A stretch of DNA of 64,000 nt. It comes from Algoriella xinjiangensis. Its GTDB lineage: Bacteria; Bacteroidota; Bacteroidia; Flavobacteriales; Weeksellaceae. The notes beneath the pieces are model-generated. The model worked only from the letters and a program-made list of their open reading frames with translations. It was not told the origin of the DNA and did not search any database. The DNA lies in NCBI RefSeq assembly GCF_900115015.1, contig NZ_FOUZ01000002.1, positions 1 to 64,000 on the forward strand, read 5' to 3'. Below, in pieces: positions 94 through 6,455 of the stretch; positions within the stretch are counted from its first letter, which is position 1; each line of letters begins with the position of its first letter. Both the position numbers and the translations under genes were made by a program.

Positions 94-300
94 TGGAGTA
101 AAGTCAAGGAAAAGAGAACTAAGACTTAAGATTTAGAACTTAATACTTACAACTCAAAACTACTTGTGTTCCTGAAACAAGTTCAGGATGACGTGAGGGA
201 GAAAAGATTAAGATTCTTCGCTGCGCTCTGAATGACAAGGTGGTGTTTTGCTTATAAACTTATATCTTAAGTCTTATAACTTATAACTGACAACTAAGAG
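94..300. repeat. Gene-free spacer with dispersed hairpin repeats
   Basis: No gene is visible here. Bases 171-192 hold CCTGAA-acaag-TTCAGG plus 'atgac', the inverted form of a hairpin repeat also seen near 18122, 34856 and 36521. Around 208-235 lies 'agattcttcgctgcgctctgaatgac', like the repeat near 53356. A 12-bp inverted repeat (AAGACTTAAGAT at 121-132, ATCTTAAGTCTT at 264-275) brackets them. Such repeats are common between flavobacterial genes; any function is unknown. Confidence 0.6.
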
Positions 301-424
301 TTGCGTTAGGGATAGTAGTGGAAATCCTTTGCTGTATAGCAAAGATTGAAACGGATAGCCCGACCGAGCGAGAGATACAATGTTATTATTTTTTTTATTG
401 GAATTTATGAGCGAGGGAACGCCA
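301..424 (+). ncRNA. Structured RNA element, flavo-1-like
   Basis: The segment combines 'gttagggatag', 'gtggaaatcc', a hairpin CTTTGCT-gtat-AGCAAAG (327-344), 'gaaacggatagcccgacc', and a closing helix GCGTT (303-307) with AACGC (418-422). I recognise this arrangement as an element scattered through flavobacterial genomes and believe it matches the flavo-1 RNA motif; the name is from memory and was not checked with a covariance model. It lies between the rRNA operon end and the convergent M50 protease gene. Confidence 0.5.
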
Positions 425-425
425 T

Positions 426-450
426 AAAAAAAGCCCAACTAATGTTGAGC
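426..450 (-). terminator. Terminator of the RiPP-like operon, overlapping the last codons
   Basis: Read on the minus strand, GCTCAAC-attA-GTTGGGC forms a 7-bp stem with one T-G wobble, followed by seven T. The hairpin contains the last codons and stop of the M50 protease gene, so coding end and terminator share bases. Confidence 0.75.
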
Positions 451-1602
451 TTCTTGTATATTTTTTTGAGAAGGAAGTATTCGTTTTATGAGATTAAAGA
501 CAATCAGATAGAATACGATTGAAATTAAAAGTAATTCGACATTCTCATTAAGAAAATTAAACGTTTTGGATGGATGTGTAAAGATTGTTTTTACTAAATC
601 TATTGGTCCTGTAAACAATTTGGTTTTGTATGTGAGAATTATTCGGACTACTATAAAAATCATGAAGATTTGGTTAAATAATCCATAAATTAATTCTAAA
701 ACTTCATTCTTGTTATTGATTTTAAATTTGAACGGGTTTTTTATAAAATCAATTACTCTTTTATTACTATTTGATAATAGATTTGGTGAATCGGTTAAAT
801 CCGATAATATCCAATAACCGTCTGTGCGTATAAATGGTATTAATTGGTATAAAATAACAAGTGTGCTTAATGCTATTATATCCTGTATTTCGTGAATTCC
901 TGTTATAAGATAAATTATAAAAAGTGCTACAATAATGTAAAGCTGTACATATACACCTGCCAAATTTGTGATGATACGTTCTTCTTTTTTGGCTGTCCAA
1001 ATTGGAGTAATATTTGAATAGAAAACTGGAAACAGAAAATAAATTCCGACACCAATTTCACCATTCTTTTTTGTAAAACGATTACACGCTGCAATGTGTC
1101 CAAACTCGTGAATAAATGCACTTACAATATAAATGATAAACAAGTACACCATATAATTTGTATCCAAATGAAAATGATGTAACGTTGAAATATTGTAAAT
1201 AGCCAACACGAAAAGTAGTGTAAAACTTATCCAAAAGAAAGTTGGTTGAAACAATGGTTGAATTAATTTAGACCATTTTCCTGCTTTTTCTGGCGAAAGA
1301 ATTTTAGTTTCGAAAAGGATAAATGATTTTTCTTTTTTCTGATCTTCTTCTCTTTCTTCGTCTAGCTCTAATGTTTTTAGATTTTGGCTAACAATTGAAT
1401 TAAAATCTGTTTCGGAAACATAATCAAATTCTTTGATAAAATCTTGGTACGCTAAAGTCGAATTGTTATTTCGCTTTAGGATTTCTAGTAATAATTTGAT
1501 TTCGTTACTTACAATAAAGTATTTTTCGGAATGTTCTAAAATCCAATTGTTTTCATTTTTCTTTGTAAAAGAAAATTCTTTATATGTAAGTGTATTAAGC
1601 AT
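439..1602 (-). CDS. Membrane zinc metalloprotease, M50-type peptide protease of RiPP clusters
   Basis: The protein has 387 residues and several membrane helices. HEFGH at 165-169 supplies two histidine ligands and the catalytic Glu. An N-L-A-G segment (213-216) and an R-T-D-G-Y-W motif around 259-264, with Asp261 as probable third ligand, follow. The 'DGYW...D..PNL' signature is typical of putative peptide zinc metalloproteases found in bacteriocin and RiPP loci. Residues 1-85 are soluble and could be a PqqD-like winged-helix peptide-binding domain; that is inference from pattern only. Its start overlaps the upstream stop by 8 bases. A role in leader cleavage or export of the small peptide at 5361-5507 is plausible but unproven. 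Confidence 0.8.
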   Translation of the reverse strand: MLNTLTYKEFSFTKKNENNWILEHSEKYFIVSNEIKLLLEILKRNNNSTLAYQDFIKEFDYVSETDFNSIVSQNLKTLELDEEREEDQKKEKSFILFETKILSPEKAGKWSKLIQPLFQPTFFWISFTLLFVLAIYNISTLHHFHLDTNYMVYLFIIYIVSAFIHEFGHIAACNRFTKKNGEIGVGIYFLFPVFYSNITPIWTAKKEERIITNLAGVYVQLYIIVALFIIYLITGIHEIQDIIALSTLVILYQLIPFIRTDGYWILSDLTDSPNLLSNSNKRVIDFIKNPFKFKINNKNEVLELIYGLFNQIFMIFIVVRIILTYKTKLFTGPIDLVKTIFTHPSKTFNFLNENVELLLISIVFYLIVFNLIKRILPSQKNIQEAQH

Positions 1603-2395
1603 TTCTAATTTCTTCTATTTGTAATTTCCAATCTCTAATTTGCTCATTAATAATATCTACCCAATTTACGATTTTATTTAATTGATATTTAGAAGCAATT
1701 TCTTTGGCTAAAGAAAACTGCTCTATCATATAATCAAACTGAGGATTACACAATTCTTCTAATGCAAAAAATGCTTTGTGTGTATAGGTTTGATTATCTG
1801 GATAATAATCGTCATCAGCTTTTAGTAACTGAATTGTGTTAGAAATGATGTGTGTAAACTGTTTGTTTTGCAAATCGTCGCCAATATCAGTAATGTCATC
1901 ATACATTTGTATTGCACGAAAAATATGCGTTAACATCATTTTAATTTCCTCTGTCGGATAATTTTCTTGTAACAATTGTATGCCATCTACAACAAAAAAT
2001 ACAGGAATGTGCTTGTCTACAGCTATTTCCTGAAATTCGTCTTTAGATAATACATAACTATCAAAATCCCACAATTTTTCTTTGATTAAAGCATCAAAAT
2101 AAATTTTACTGTATTTAGATTTACTTTCAAAGATAGATGAACCCTCACCAAATAAATTGATAAGGGTTTTTATACATTTTTCATGATGTTCTGTTAGATT
2201 AACTAACGGATTATCATCTAAAAGTTGTTTATCTATAGGAATCTCATTATCAATTAATTTATCAAGATAAATAATGTATGTATAATATGTTTTGGCAATA
2301 AGATCTAATTGTGATTTTTTCTCAGAATCAATATTTACATTTTCTGTTAAGAAATCTACAACATCTTGAAAAAATAGTTGGTTAATTTGGTTCAT
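1595..2395 (-). CDS. Class I isoprenoid-synthase-like protein of unknown substrate
   Basis: The protein has 266 residues, is acidic, and has no signal peptide or membrane segment. Two Asp-rich motifs stand out: D45-K-L-I-D49-N-E, and D166-D167-I-T-D170-I-G-D173-D174. Both lie in predicted helices about 120 residues apart, as the metal-diphosphate sites do in prenyl synthases and squalene/phytoene synthase relatives. Overall similarity to housekeeping polyprenyl synthases is weak and typical Arg and Lys motifs are missing, so this may be a divergent prenyl-transfer enzyme or a non-enzymatic relative. It lies one base after the third secreted protein gene and overlaps the protease gene, so it was probably co-selected with the peptide locus. 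Confidence 0.6.
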   Translation of the reverse strand: MNQINQLFFQDVVDFLTENVNIDSEKKSQLDLIAKTYYTYIIYLDKLIDNEIPIDKQLLDDNPLVNLTEHHEKCIKTLINLFGEGSSIFESKSKYSKIYFDALIKEKLWDFDSYVLSKDEFQEIAVDKHIPVFFVVDGIQLLQENYPTEEIKMMLTHIFRAIQMYDDITDIGDDLQNKQFTHIISNTIQLLKADDDYYPDNQTYTHKAFFALEELCNPQFDYMIEQFSLAKEIASKYQLNKIVNWVDIINEQIRDWKLQIEEIRNA

Positions 2396-2396
2396 A

Positions 2397-3389
2397 TTAT
2401 GGTGTATAGTTAACGGATAAGGTTATTGTATTTTGTGCAATAAATGTTGAAGAATTATTACATGAGAAAGTAGGAGGATTATTACCAGCACCAAAGTAGA
2501 ATATTAAAGGATAATTTCCAATAGCCATAGTTTTACCATTTGATGCTTGAGTAGTATTATTATCACCAGTTACATTGTCTGTATATAGATATTTGTAAGC
2601 TAGAAAATAAGTATAATTTCCAGAAGGAATATTTTCTTCATAAAAATCTGTTGAATACGTATCAAAATTACAGTTACCACTAATGATAGCATTAAATATT
2701 TTTGTACCTACTAATATTGGATTTGTATCTCCCGTTTTTTGTCTGAATAATGCGACAGCATATACAATATTATTAGTCGATGCATAATTATTGAAACGAA
2801 CTAATCCATTTCCATTTACGTAGACCTTATTTTTTAAGTTGTATTTGGTACTTATATCAAATGCAGGTGTCTGGAAATTAGTTACTCTAGTCCAACTTCC
2901 TAAACCAGAAAACCCTGCTGCAAATTGTCCATCAGTATTTGCATTTGCTTGAGCTTGTGTTGGAAAAAAACCTGCAAGTGGAGATTGAGAGTAATTCATT
3001 GATACATTTCTATCTGTATTTAAATCTCCAGTAAATGTGGAAGAACTATATGTTCTTGTGTAGGCAATTGCATCCGTTACAACATCTGAGTTTAATAGCA
3101 TTCCCCAAGTTCCATCTTTAAATATATAGATCCCTTTTGGATTCACATTTGTTCCCAGTTGTATATTATAAACAAGAGAACCTTCTGGTGGATATTGTGT
3201 TATATCTGTTGGAGATAATATAAGTAAATCTACTTTAGGCATCATTACTCCTGAATTAACTGCTTGAATATCTAAAATAGCTTTAGGTGTAACGTTTGCA
3301 CTTGTATTATAGTTTGAATCTTCTGATATAATGACTTGTGCTTGTATCAAAGAAGATGCTAATGTTAAAAAAAATAAGAAGTGTTTCAT
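2397..3389 (-). CDS. Secreted protein, third paralogue of the RiPP-like operon
   Basis: The protein has 330 residues. An N-terminal signal peptide ends near A-Q-V. The next ~90 residues carry the pattern of Bacteroidota surface proteins: A-I-L-D, then G-V-M-M-P-K, then a G-S-L-V-Y-N turn, then G-I-Y-I-F-K-D-G-T-W. The C-terminal half is rich in beta strand and Asn/Thr and contains the only two cysteines (contexts GNC-N and FSC-N). The two upstream paralogues have cysteines at matching places, suggesting one conserved disulfide. No T9SS sorting domain or beta-barrel signature is seen. The function is not known to me. Confidence 0.7.
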   Translation of the reverse strand: MKHFLFFLTLASSLIQAQVIISEDSNYNTSANVTPKAILDIQAVNSGVMMPKVDLLILSPTDITQYPPEGSLVYNIQLGTNVNPKGIYIFKDGTWGMLLNSDVVTDAIAYTRTYSSSTFTGDLNTDRNVSMNYSQSPLAGFFPTQAQANANTDGQFAAGFSGLGSWTRVTNFQTPAFDISTKYNLKNKVYVNGNGLVRFNNYASTNNIVYAVALFRQKTGDTNPILVGTKIFNAIISGNCNFDTYSTDFYEENIPSGNYTYFLAYKYLYTDNVTGDNNTTQASNGKTMAIGNYPLIFYFGAGNNPPTFSCNNSSTFIAQNTITLSVNYTP

Positions 3390-3392
3390 AAG

Positions 3393-4337
3393 TTAAAAGC
3401 TTGGATTTTCGTAAGTTTCAATAATCAATTTTGTTGTAGCAGCAGAACTAGGTAAGTATTGTTGTCTTTGAGTTGCAGCTGTAGAACTTGTACAAGTTGC
3501 ATCTTTTTGACCTATATTTACAGTAAATGCTTTTCCATTATCCGAAGAAATATCAGTATTCCATACCTCTCTTTTTTCTATAGCAATTCTTACTGTATTA
3601 TCACCAATTGGTAGATTTCTTAAAAAATTAACTAAATCAAATTGTATTTTCGCACACACATTATTTGTTATATAAGTAGATATAATTTTGTAATCTACTA
3701 ATAAAAAATCTGTTGAGTTTGGGTATTGAATAAATAATGCTAAACCATATAACCCACGTTGAGTTGTAGTAGGAGCAGATGGTAATTTCATTTGTAAAGC
3801 TCCAGTAAGAGTTAATTTATTTACATTATTTGTGTTTTTTATTGTAATTAATTTACTTGTAGTATTATCTTGGAATAATAAATCAGTCCAATTTGCAGAA
3901 TTCACAGTATAGTTTTCACCTATTGTGTGTTGTCCATGATTTGTAGCTGCTCCAACATCATTTCCCATTGTATAACTTATAGGGTTAACAATTTGGCTTG
4001 TCATTACTTTTACAGCAGATAAATTTGTTAATTTTGATAAATAAGCTTTATCAGCTAGTATGGTCCATTGTGTTTTATCCCAAAAGTATAATCCTTTATT
4101 TGTCCCAGAGTTAAAAATTAATAATGAATTGCGCATATTAGTAGCATCAGTATCACCAAGAAAATTTGTAGCTGTTGTAAGATTATAATTAGGAATAGAA
4201 AAACCTTTGATTTCTGCCCTATTATTACTAGAAAAATTAGCTATAATATTATTATTTGTATCAGCAGGTATTCCTGTAGAAATTTGAGCATTAACATTAA
4301 TTAATAATAATATAAATATAAAAGTTAGGTTTTTCAT
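3393..4337 (-). CDS. Secreted protein, second paralogue of the RiPP-like operon
   Basis: The protein has 314 residues with a signal peptide ending near N-A-Q. It shares the layout of its two neighbours: an N-terminal module ending in L-Y-F-W-D-K-T-Q-W, then a beta-rich C-terminal module beginning around 'LALFIQ' and containing 'LPIGDN', which matches 'LSPGTY' and 'IPSGNY' in the others. Exactly two cysteines occur (NVC-A and ATC-T), at positions equivalent to those of the paralogues. Gaps to both neighbours are only 3-4 bases, so translation is probably coupled. Function unknown. Confidence 0.7.
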   Translation of the reverse strand: MKNLTFIFILLLINVNAQISTGIPADTNNNIIANFSSNNRAEIKGFSIPNYNLTTATNFLGDTDATNMRNSLLIFNSGTNKGLYFWDKTQWTILADKAYLSKLTNLSAVKVMTSQIVNPISYTMGNDVGAATNHGQHTIGENYTVNSANWTDLLFQDNTTSKLITIKNTNNVNKLTLTGALQMKLPSAPTTTQRGLYGLALFIQYPNSTDFLLVDYKIISTYITNNVCAKIQFDLVNFLRNLPIGDNTVRIAIEKREVWNTDISSDNGKAFTVNIGQKDATCTSSTAATQRQQYLPSSAATTKLIIETYENPSF

Positions 4338-4341
4338 AGGT

Positions 4342-5280
4342 TTAGTTTTTTATATTAGTTACAACGATGTTTAGATTTGATCTCATATTTACTTTATCAG
4401 TATTATTACAAGCCCCATTGTTTGATGATACTCCAGCTGCGTTATGTCCTCCAAAAGTTAAATTTGAATTTGCTCCATACTCTGTATTTGTTGTACCTAC
4501 TGTATAATAATTTTTTCTACCATAAGCAAATAATGCTACTGAGTAAGTTCCTGGAGATAAATTGATTAATGTACTACTTGTTATGTATGGTATTATACTA
4601 CAGGTACTTACTTCTCCTGTACCAAATGTCCCTACAGAATATAAATGATAATTAGTTTCTGTTGATTTTTTAATAAATATTCCTATATTAAAAGTCAAGG
4701 TTCTTGATTTTTGAGATCCAGTAGTTATAGTATTATTACTAGCTGATTGTGCATTACCGCTACCAAACATTTGTACATAATTTGTATTTTCAGTAACAGT
4801 AAAATCCATAGTTGTCTCCGGAATTAGACTCCAAGTTTTACCATCTGTAGGTGTTTCTTGATAGCTAATAGCTGGAAGTTGAGCAGCTTCAGTTGTAAAA
4901 GATGATACGTTTAATGGAGAATTACCAGAAGATGTGACAGAAAATAATTGATTAACTGTTAAACGTGATGTTATATTTTTAAAATCAATAATATAATTCC
5001 ATTTTGCATTTTCCCAATAATAAAAACCAGAACCAATATCAGAATTTGTTCCTGTAGGTGTACCTTCGTTATAGATTGTTAAACCACTCGGTACTGTTGG
5101 TGTTTTTAAGAAAGATACATCCGTTAATGATTGAACAGTTTTTATTCTCGGAAATAAAATTCCTTGATTAGTTGCCCCTGTTTCAAAAACAGAATTTGCA
5201 TTAATGTTTGTTTTATTAATTCCTATTTGAGCAAATAAAAATGGTTGAATTAATAAAGCTAAAAGGTATTTTTTTTTCAT
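4342..5280 (-). CDS. Secreted protein, first paralogue of the RiPP-like operon
   Basis: The protein has 312 residues with a short signal peptide ending F-L-F-A-Q. It begins with the 'QIGINKT...' and 'GILFPRI' pattern seen at the head of many Bacteroidota surface proteins, followed by 'GLTIYNEG' and 'GFYYWENAKW'. The C-terminal module is beta-rich with 'IGIFIKK' and 'LSPGTYSVALFAYG'. It has two cysteines (STC-S, GAC-N). It is the first gene after the small peptide and its attenuator hairpin. It may be a surface or outer-membrane-associated partner of the peptide product; this is inference. Confidence 0.7.
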   Translation of the reverse strand: MKKKYLLALLIQPFLFAQIGINKTNINANSVFETGATNQGILFPRIKTVQSLTDVSFLKTPTVPSGLTIYNEGTPTGTNSDIGSGFYYWENAKWNYIIDFKNITSRLTVNQLFSVTSSGNSPLNVSSFTTEAAQLPAISYQETPTDGKTWSLIPETTMDFTVTENTNYVQMFGSGNAQSASNNTITTGSQKSRTLTFNIGIFIKKSTETNYHLYSVGTFGTGEVSTCSIIPYITSSTLINLSPGTYSVALFAYGRKNYYTVGTTNTEYGANSNLTFGGHNAAGVSSNNGACNNTDKVNMRSNLNIVVTNIKN

Positions 5281-5318
5281 AGAAGGTTTTTTTAATATAT
5301 TTAAATTTACTAGGTATT

Positions 5319-5355
5319 AAAAACACCTAACTATGCAATTAAGCATAGCTAGGTG
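5319..5355 (-). terminator. Attenuator-type hairpin between the peptide gene and the rest of the operon
   Basis: A 13-bp stem (5324-5336 with 5343-5355) encloses a 6-nt loop, followed on the minus strand by five T. The single irregular pair is G-U in the minus-strand RNA but A-C in the plus-strand RNA, which favours minus transcription. It lies only 5 bases after the stop codon of the small peptide. Partial termination here would give a high ratio of peptide to downstream proteins, as is usual for RiPP precursors. Confidence 0.75.
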
Positions 5356-5360
5356 TTGTA

Positions 5361-5507
5361 TTATGCTCCTCCTCCTGGATTTCCTGGATCTGTAGGTGTT
5401 CCTCCTCCATTATGACAATGAAGAATACAACATAAAAGGCAATAGAAAATAAATTCTTTTCTGTTCTCTAATTTCTCAACTTGAAAAGCATTGATTGACT
5501 TTTTCAT
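5361..5507 (-). CDS. Short Cys-rich peptide, candidate RiPP precursor
   Basis: An ATG-initiated frame of 48 codons encodes a leader-like start 'MKKSINAF' with a charged E/K/R stretch to about residue 19. A hydrophobic Cys-rich core follows with C23, C26, C27 and C31 (motif CLLCCILHCH), then a Gly/Pro/Thr-rich tail ending G-G-G-A. The M-K-K-S-x-x-x-F beginning followed by E-K-L resembles leaders of Bacteroidota natural-product precursors, but no double-Gly cleavage site precedes the core. The gene is first in an operon with an M50 peptide protease and an isoprenoid-synthase-like protein, and it is followed by an attenuator. Alternative reading: a small membrane-active or Cys-lipidated peptide. 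I do not recognise a named family. Confidence 0.65.
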   Translation of the reverse strand: MKKSINAFQVEKLENRKEFIFYCLLCCILHCHNGGGTPTDPGNPGGGA

Positions 5508-5885
5508 AACTAAATAGTTTTAAGGGTTAAATAAAAATATATTAAATTGTGAAGTATAAACAAAATGTTTAAACTTCTATAAAATTTCTAAAAAAAAAAT
5601 AGTAAATTGGATTTACAAATTGCTGACAATTATATAATTGAGCATTTATGCTTTATGTAGTGTGTGTAATTTCATAGGTAGTAGTTGTTTAGTTTTGGTT
5701 TTTCAAATATAGAATTTTTTTTAATCCGAAATGTTAAATTATTATTTTTTTAAACACCTGTATATCAATGTGTAATATGATACAAATGGTATTAAATACT
5801 TAATTTTTATTTGTTTTTTCTTAAAAATGAAAAAGCTACCTTTATGCAATCAAATTTTTATACATTCGTTTTATAATATTCTCCT
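5508..5885. other. Divergent intergenic region, peptide operon / sigma factor
   Basis: This 378-base AT-rich spacer lies between the divergent peptide operon (minus) and ECF sigma gene (plus). I see no further gene. A perfect minus-strand -7 element lies at 5704-5711. A 7-of-8 plus-strand match TACCTTTA lies at 5837-5844, about 48 bases before the sigma gene start. The peptide mRNA would thus have a leader of about 190 nt, with a small AGCAT-aa-ATGCT hairpin near 5643-5654 and no clear larger fold. Confidence 0.5.
5704..5711 (-). promoter_or_regulatory. Probable -7 promoter element of the peptide operon
   Basis: The minus strand reads TATATTTG, a perfect match to the Bacteroidota TAnnTTTG -7 consensus. 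Upstream, TTTCGG lies near the expected -33 place and is only a partial match to TTTG. It is the only perfect -7 match I found in the spacer on this strand. Confidence 0.4.
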
Positions 5886-6422
5886 TTGGATTTAGAGATT
5901 TTAAAATATATTAATTCACACAATAACGAAGAAGCTTTTAAATTAATCGTTTCGCATTATCACCAAAAAATTTATTGGCAAATACGTCGCATGGTTTTGA
6001 TACATGAAGACGCAGATGATGTAACGCAAAATGTATTTATCAAGATTTATAAAAATTTAGATACGTTTAAAAATGAAGCCAAACTTTCGACTTGGATTTT
6101 TAGAATTACATATAACGAAACCATTAATTTTATCAATAAAAATGCAAAAGAAAAAAATGTGTCTTTTGAAGATTACACAAATTCTGTTGCAAACGAATTA
6201 AGTTCGGACGAATATTATGATGGTAACGAAATTGATTTGAAATTACAAAAAGCAATTGCAAATTTACCCGAAAAACAGCGTATCGTTTTTATGATGAAAT
6301 ATTATGATAAATTAAAATACGAACAGATTTCGGAGATTTTAGGAACTTCGGTTGGTGGTTTAAAAGCATCTTATCATCATGCGGTTACAAAGATTAAAGA
6401 ATTTTTAGAAGTTGAAGATTAA
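5886..6422 (+). CDS. RNA polymerase sigma factor, ECF type
   Basis: The protein has 178 residues. Region 2 is visible at about 20-90 ('HEDADDVTQNVFIKIY' followed by a L-S-T-W-I-F-R-I segment) and region 4 at about 128-175 ('LPEKQRIVFMMKYYDKLKYEQISEILG'). The start is TTG; an in-frame TAA 10 bases upstream and no nearby ATG leave it as the only reasonable start. The next gene, 33 bases downstream, encodes a small membrane protein that may be its anti-sigma factor. It is divergent from the RiPP-like operon, so regulation of that operon is possible but not shown. Confidence 0.88.
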   Translation: MDLEILKYINSHNNEEAFKLIVSHYHQKIYWQIRRMVLIHEDADDVTQNVFIKIYKNLDTFKNEAKLSTWIFRITYNETINFINKNAKEKNVSFEDYTNSVANELSSDEYYDGNEIDLKLQKAIANLPEKQRIVFMMKYYDKLKYEQISEILGTSVGGLKASYHHAVTKIKEFLEVED

Positions 6423-6455
6423 ACCTTTTTCAATTTTAATTGTCTTATTAATGAT

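Follow-up and report, generated by a model that had tools for sequence, protein, structure and literature searches.

What would a peptide operon make when it encodes an isoprenoid-synthase-like protein beside a peptide that contains no Trp? The question is raised by the window analysed here (the first 64,000 nucleotides of contig NZ_FOUZ01000002.1 of Algoriella xinjiangensis), in which six genes occupy 439..5507 of the minus strand. An initial annotation, made from the sequence alone, read them as an operon for a ribosomally synthesized and post-translationally modified peptide (RiPP) centered on a 48-aa Cys-rich peptide. Our analysis indicates that the locus is very probably a RiPP operon with a prenyltransferase, and that it probably makes a prenylated RiPP whose acceptor has moved to Tyr22 or Cys23 of the precursor. 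The isoprenoid-synthase-like protein, hereafter P, stands alone in the window and in a clade of relatives, and its homologs elsewhere are fused to a second domain. All 25 precursors found beside fused enzymes (13 loci) contain Trp, which is absent from the window precursor and from 17 of the 22 precursors of stand-alone loci. Conversely, the fourth residue past the leader's final Glu (E+4) is Tyr in 22 of 22 stand-alone-type precursors versus 2 of 25 fused-type ones. The operon consists of the following features:

5361..5507, minus strand: 48-aa precursor of RiPP type, in which the leader FQVEKLENRKE is followed by FIFY22-C23 and a Trp-free core rich in Cys and Gly
5322..5357, minus strand: stem-loop of 15 pairs including one G-U, 3' of the precursor stop codon
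4342..5280, minus strand: secreted protein 1, with a signal peptide, an N-terminal module and a C-terminal jelly roll resembling tumor necrosis factor (TNF) and C1q (weak model)
3393..4337, minus strand: secreted protein 2, a paralogue
2397..3389, minus strand: secreted protein 3, a paralogue
1595..2395, minus strand: predicted prenyltransferase P, stand-alone, resembling trans-isoprenyl diphosphate synthases (trans-IDS); D45xxxD49, Q163xxD166D167xxD170 and clade-specific His129
439..1602, minus strand: M50 (site-2-type) putative leader protease; HEFGH and DGYW; kin of daptide and epipeptide proteases

Results

A predicted stand-alone prenyltransferase

By itself the 266-aa P of the window has no Pfam match and no NCBIfam match that fits, and a Pfam scan of 16 relatives returned no fitting family. 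Its trans-IDS-like identity instead rests on a two-step chain through the fused P domains. In genome G053 the region homologous to P makes up the N-terminal half of a protein of 622 aa; the C-terminal half is a toroid of the squalene-hopene-cyclase type that carries a DxDD motif. A toroid was identified in the fused relative L012, whereas the window protein consists of the P domain only. Across 12 aligned P regions the sole invariant residues are the six Asp of D45xxxD49 and D166D167xxD170xxxD174. In the PDB, a profile of these 12 domains retrieves trans-prenyltransferases and polyprenyl synthetases (best E 2.8e-4), and in genomes it weakly matches frames of polyprenyl-synthetase length. A profile of stand-alone P proteins aligns with the fused P domains over 255 columns (hhalign 99.8%, E 4e-28), and the fused P domains align with three trans-IDS with both Asp motifs in register (hhalign E 3.9e-5). 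Both motifs, with a Gln upstream of the second, are present in 17/17 stand-alone rows. The isoprenoid-synthase likeness seen in the initial annotation stands, with one correction: the enzyme that modifies the peptide by prenylation is most likely this protein itself.

The P profile matched 32 of the 320 genomes of the family (Weeksellaceae): 17 encode a stand-alone P and 15 a fused or broken-fused one, with both in G605. An order-wide search matched 8 of 395 genomes in all and added one stand-alone P (G954, another family), and a search of the phylum added one distant case, L039 of genome G320. In the tree 17 stand-alone enzymes form one clade (100/100). L039 is separated from them by a long branch and perhaps represents a second, independent stand-alone case; the precursor at its locus (627-6439) is very rich in Cys and has no Trp (RLELSCYC...). 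P has a precursor and an M50 gene as neighbors in 17/17 stand-alone loci of the family and in 19/19 once G954 and L039 are included, counting L073, in which the M50 gene runs over two frames, and Empedobacter brevis, in which the P gene does. The peptide frame is thus conserved next to the enzyme pair in relatives, as the initial annotation had proposed to check. The E. brevis split (L011 of G002, 5060-5476 and 5518-5859) may be real decay or a sequencing error; the precursor, triplet and M50 frames of that locus look intact.

Among fused loci, the leader motif identified a precursor in 13 of 22. The nine without one, L082 and eight look-alike loci, were left out of the Trp count. The look-alike loci (L074, L076, L077, L078, L079, L080, L081 and L096) are spread over three genera (g9, g21, g23) and have a common start sequence and common neighbors (DNA identity was not measured), with two copies broken into several frames, and they probably represent a recent transfer or a mobile element. 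The DxDD pattern occurs in just 7 of the 13 fused enzymes with a precursor, so cyclization need not be general among them. Three candidates were set aside: a 364-aa frame (L102, G265) with a weak match and neither precursor nor M50 gene nearby, a polyprenyl synthetase of ordinary length that was the sole match in its genome (L097, G046), and a 372-aa DxDD protein without a P domain (L040, G150).

In the fused loci L032-L035 a protein with a CxxxCxxC motif, recognized by eye as resembling that of radical S-adenosylmethionine (SAM) enzymes, is encoded directly upstream of the precursor, which makes a second modification likely there. One fused maturase is preceded by six tandem precursors with differing cores (L031, 6319-7364), a natural core library, and L083 (5578-5892 and 10355-11178) has four precursors with long Gly-Gly-Asn-rich repeats past ELGSW.

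Trp and Tyr behind the leader

The fused-type Trp count becomes 24/24 if the second L012 precursor, which is not listed as an open reading frame (ORF) with a usual start codon, is excluded. The first Trp is the third or fourth residue past the leader's final Glu in 18 of the 25, the seventh in one and close to the C-terminus in six. The comparison of precursor residues gives a Fisher value of 9.6e-9; it takes no account of kinship, and we do not treat it as a probability.

The enzymes differ too. His129, next to Lys128, is present in 17/17 members of the stand-alone clade and in 0/15 fused enzymes, which have Ser, Cys, Ala or Asn at this position, and the residue is Thr in 3/3 trans-IDS, enzymes in which a Lys-Thr pair contacts the allylic site. 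Phe159, Met164 and Ser185 show the same distribution (17/17 versus 0/15). A changed residue at 129 together with the loss of Trp from the acceptor place would be expected from an acceptor switch, but also from the common descent of a single clade. Because the window precursor contains no Trp, its acceptor is likely another residue; Tyr22 is the best candidate, at a little short of an even chance, with Cys23 next.

Precursor, hairpin and probable leader protease

Among 467 small ORFs of the window, the leader pattern of the family has a single match, the precursor; residue-shuffled ORFs gave a mean of 0.06 matches per 64 kb, and none of 100 shuffles produced the strict form with RKEFxxY. Across the 15 codons from leader to Tyr, the ratio of nonsynonymous to synonymous substitution (pN/pS) is 0.056 among four same-genus precursors and 0.094 in genus g21 (15 of 16 precursors, L086 left out). 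This stretch is under purifying selection, and the substitution pattern, which the initial annotation had named as a way to show the peptide non-coding, fits a coding frame. Past Tyr22-Cys23 the same-genus precursors differ in sequence and length, and a conserved leader with a variable part behind it fits the usual RiPP leader/core picture. The C-x2-C-C-x3-C-H pattern that the earlier description had noted is indeed present in the window peptide, but it is not conserved even inside the genus; the FxxY segment is the conserved precursor feature. A related precursor occurs in 5 of 14 genus genomes (E ≤6.7e-9; remaining matches E ≥0.1). P is present in four of the five, and in the fifth (G003) the neighboring stretch reads N; the G003 precursor (L119, 8527-8673) lies beside a secreted triplet.

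The precursor is separated from the next gene by an 80-nucleotide gap containing the hairpin that the initial annotation had noted, a 15-pair stem that begins 3 nucleotides past the precursor stop. A comparable hairpin lies 3' of the last precursor in 17 of the 19 stand-alone-type loci (L086 and L039 lack one), with varied sequences and whichever gene comes next. The simplest reading is a read-through terminator or a transcript stabilizer that would favor the precursor. No consistent promoter site was found upstream of the precursors.

HExGH and RxDGYW are invariant in the 24 aligned M50 members, all of which match the daptide protease model and 22 of which match the YydH/LiaK model. The window protein aligns with the daptide model NF041824 from residue 14 onward with a score of 100.5 (cut-off 300), and with the epipeptide protease model NF058609 through its M50 domain (E 1.8e-17). 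A RiPP recognition element (RRE) is likely in the M50 protein; no match to Pfam PqqD was listed for the 24 members. In daptides, according to PMC10036551, an RRE is fused to the intramembrane protease, the precursor motif is ELExMEAP and MpaP removes the leader. EpeP, the M50 protease of epipeptides, is thought to cut and export the peptide (PMC10885120); the operon contains no transporter gene.

Secreted triplet and chromosomal site

The last five genes are tightly packed, with one 8-nucleotide overlap and gaps of 1, 3 and 4 nucleotides, and the six frames and these junctions were found exactly where the initial annotation placed them. Its suggestion that the three secreted proteins act with the peptide found no support in that form. 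The triplet is present at 11 of the 19 stand-alone-type loci and absent from 8, and in G011 it occupies the same chromosomal site as the operon (L123, 1912-4940) in a stretch that, up to the contig end, contains no intact precursor, prenyltransferase or M50 gene beside it, which argues that the secreted proteins are accessory. A weak model of secreted protein 1 (pLDDT, the predicted local distance difference test, 52.6) resembles a TNF/C1q jelly roll, the plain Foldseek list being mixed. Between the triplets of two genera, homology was not demonstrated beyond the N-terminus. An invertible cassette was considered since the triplet is reversed in L009 (G008), and no flanking inverted repeat stood out. 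Four stand-alone loci without the triplet (L091, L093, L094 and L095) have downstream frames of 218-241 aa and 1257-1311 aa that are apparently secreted.

One flank of the operon is the likely 3' end of a 5S rRNA (window ~1-50): its counterpart in L121 is 94% identical over 53 bases and overlaps an Rfam 5S call, and the Rfam scan of the window itself called no 5S. The other flank is a divergent gene for an extracytoplasmic function (ECF) sigma factor, the best match of which is present in 14/14 genus genomes. In three genomes of the genus (G004, G006, G009) the sigma gene adjoins the 5S-like stretch with no operon between them, which points to a fixed chromosomal site with presence/absence variation. 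A plasmid-borne prenyltransferase was also looked for, and the window enzyme had no match among 72,556 plasmid records. Between the 5S end and the operon lies a Flavo-1 RNA (Rfam RF01705, 57.8 bits; 295-369, plus strand), found also in L122 (8250-8344). Among the loci compared, L008 belongs to a relative, E. brevis NBRC 14943.

Discussion

A model that unifies these data is as follows. The maturation proteins would hold the precursor by its leader (xVExLExRKE), and P would bind an isoprenyl diphosphate through its two Asp motifs and transfer the isoprenyl group to the residue pair behind the leader, most likely to Tyr22, at the place that Trp holds in most related fused systems, otherwise to Cys23. 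Since no cyclase was found within the operon, to which that search was confined, the chain would stay linear. The prenyl chain and the hydrophobic segment FIFYCLLCCIL could then anchor the precursor in the membrane; cleavage there by the M50 protease, near the leader end, would release the peptide. The hairpin may keep the precursor transcript above that of the enzymes, and the three secreted, perhaps TNF/C1q-like proteins may form an accessory module at the cell surface, expressed from this operon as well.

The known trans-IDS-like peptide prenyltransferases, as listed in the review PMC13290415, are ComQ, PalQ and the P domain of ChrPC. In ChrPC an internal Trp is prenylated with C10-C20 donors and the chain is then cyclized by the cyclase domain (Hubrich et al., 2024, Chem 10:3224, as summarized in PMC13290415). 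P is homologous to the fused P domains analysed here, and these loci, which rather than ChrPC itself were the object of comparison, share with the window both Asp motifs and the upstream Gln, a short precursor with a related leader and an M50 neighbor. Unlike the ChrPC-type maturases, in which prenyltransferase and terpene cyclase are fused, the window has no cyclase domain and no Trp in its precursor, and it has His129, Phe159, Met164, Ser185 and the secreted triplet. PalQ/PalX of Paenibacillus and ComQ/ComX of Bacillus, the Trp of ComX being internal, are similar in that they too rely on stand-alone isoprenoid-synthase-fold peptide prenyltransferases. PalX differs by its nitrile-hydratase-type leader, its C-terminal Trp and the histidine kinase in its cluster, and ComQ lacks the second Asp motif that is intact in P (both from PMC10853753).

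Daptides share with the window an M50 intramembrane protease (MpaP, NF041824) and a precursor motif, ELExMEAP, that resembles LExRxE; the window precursor, however, ends in Ala without a C-terminal Thr, and the other five operon proteins match no decarboxylating, aminating or methylating family. Epipeptides likewise share the M50 domain (EpeP/YydH/LiaK, NF058609), but no radical SAM epimerase was matched among eight proteins scanned. The predicted jelly roll of secreted protein 1 recalls TNF/C1q-like lectins and collar proteins (PLTL, the BC2L-C N-domain, BxpB, BclA), at only 9-13% identity, in a low-confidence model and with an N-terminal module in front. Judged by its genes, the window would work like a ChrPC- or PalQ-type system, yet it departs from the cyclase domain of ChrPC and from the Trp acceptor of both. 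The initial annotation knew of no described system with this gene set, which is partly right: the enzyme pair itself appears to be a variant of ChrPC-type prenylated RiPPs. A literature search, which did not include the primary ChrPC paper, found no description of the Trp-free stand-alone clade.

Several observations weigh against our model. Compared directly with trans-IDS, the stand-alone profile is not significant (hhalign E 0.13); on its own it has no PDB match; and the clade, as seen above, fits no Pfam family. An AlphaFold2 model of P (three short rows) was too poor (pLDDT 47) for its fold matches to have meaning. All characterized trans-IDS-like peptide prenyltransferases take Trp, according to the review's treatment of them (PMC13290415). 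The place of Trp is not strict either, since it lies farther on than usual in 7 of the 25 fused-type precursors, and 5 of the 22 stand-alone-type precursors do hold a Trp, in four of them as the last residue, as in PalQ substrates. The 17 stand-alone enzymes being one clade, the Tyr pattern amounts to about one event, perhaps two with L039. That locus has a Tyr precursor together with Ala129, His159 and Leu164, sharing only Ser185, so the clade-private residues are not needed for the Tyr pattern. The Gln that the review ties to Trp recognition is kept (Q163, 17/17), though the three trans-IDS have it too. Finally, Tyr22 may serve in leader recognition instead of as the acceptor.

Four other explanations were compared with this model. 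The closest keeps the whole system and places the prenyl group on Cys23, giving an S-prenylated peptide and a bacterial parallel to CaaX-type thioethers. A Cys stands directly behind the Tyr in 15 of the 22 stand-alone-type precursors and His129 could act as a base for the thiol, but seven precursors lack a Cys there and L086 has none past the leader, whereas the Tyr is in all 22; we regard this variant as unlikely. Less probable still is a PalQ-like P that prenylates the C-terminal residue, with FxxY belonging to the leader only and with lineages that lack a C-terminal Trp either using another C-terminal residue or having lost the reaction. PalQ is a stand-alone enzyme selective for C-terminal Trp (PMC10853753, in its description of PalQ), and the precursors of L091 and L093-L095 end in ...GGGW; these four, however, are close relatives, and the other 18 ends are unlike one another (A, N, K, I, Y, F, S, P, R, L, M, G), hence offer no common C-terminal acceptor.

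P might, alternatively, not touch the peptide at all, making a prenyl diphosphate or being inactive beside a disulfide-bonded or unmodified bacteriocin that is cut by the M50 protease. The two Asp motifs are intact, as they are in diphosphate synthases, and many precursors have Cys-rich cores, both of which are consistent with this reading. It appears improbable given that P is most closely related to P domains from fused enzymes that have Trp-containing precursors, that the genome already has two polyprenyl synthetases above the Pfam cut-off and that a precursor lies beside P in all 19 stand-alone loci. The unit could also be centered on the secreted triplet, as a heterotrimeric TNF/C1q-like surface protein with the peptide as its small lipidated anchor or partner. 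We give this little credence, in view of the eight stand-alone loci without a triplet, of triplets in two genera whose homology ends at the N-terminus as far as demonstrated, and of the low pLDDT and mixed Foldseek list of the jelly-roll model.

We return to the prenylation of Tyr22 or Cys23, the fullest form of which we propose only tentatively, with slightly less confidence than we have in Tyr22 as acceptor: the clade would comprise the first non-Trp peptide prenyltransferases of the isoprenoid-synthase fold, cyclase-less kin of ChrPC with a private active-site His and with a Tyr (or Cys) acceptor at the same place behind the leader. Their products would be linear prenyl-peptides that are anchored in the membrane and cleaved by an intramembrane protease, co-expressed in two genera with a TNF/C1q-like triplet as a possible cell-surface partner.

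The study of peptide lipidation by enzymes of the isoprenoid-synthase fold is still young, and a 2026 review (PMC13290415) gives Trp as the only acceptor known. The window precursor lacks Trp, which suggests that attachment takes place at a new site, and the operon points beyond itself to a whole clade in which another residue is conserved at the acceptor position and the enzyme has residues specific to the clade. The prenyltransferase of this clade is covered by no Pfam model (16 members) or NCBIfam model (window member). These small (~270 aa), stand-alone enzymes are possible tools, and the fused and unfused enzymes provide a natural comparison that bears on what decides the acceptor residue.

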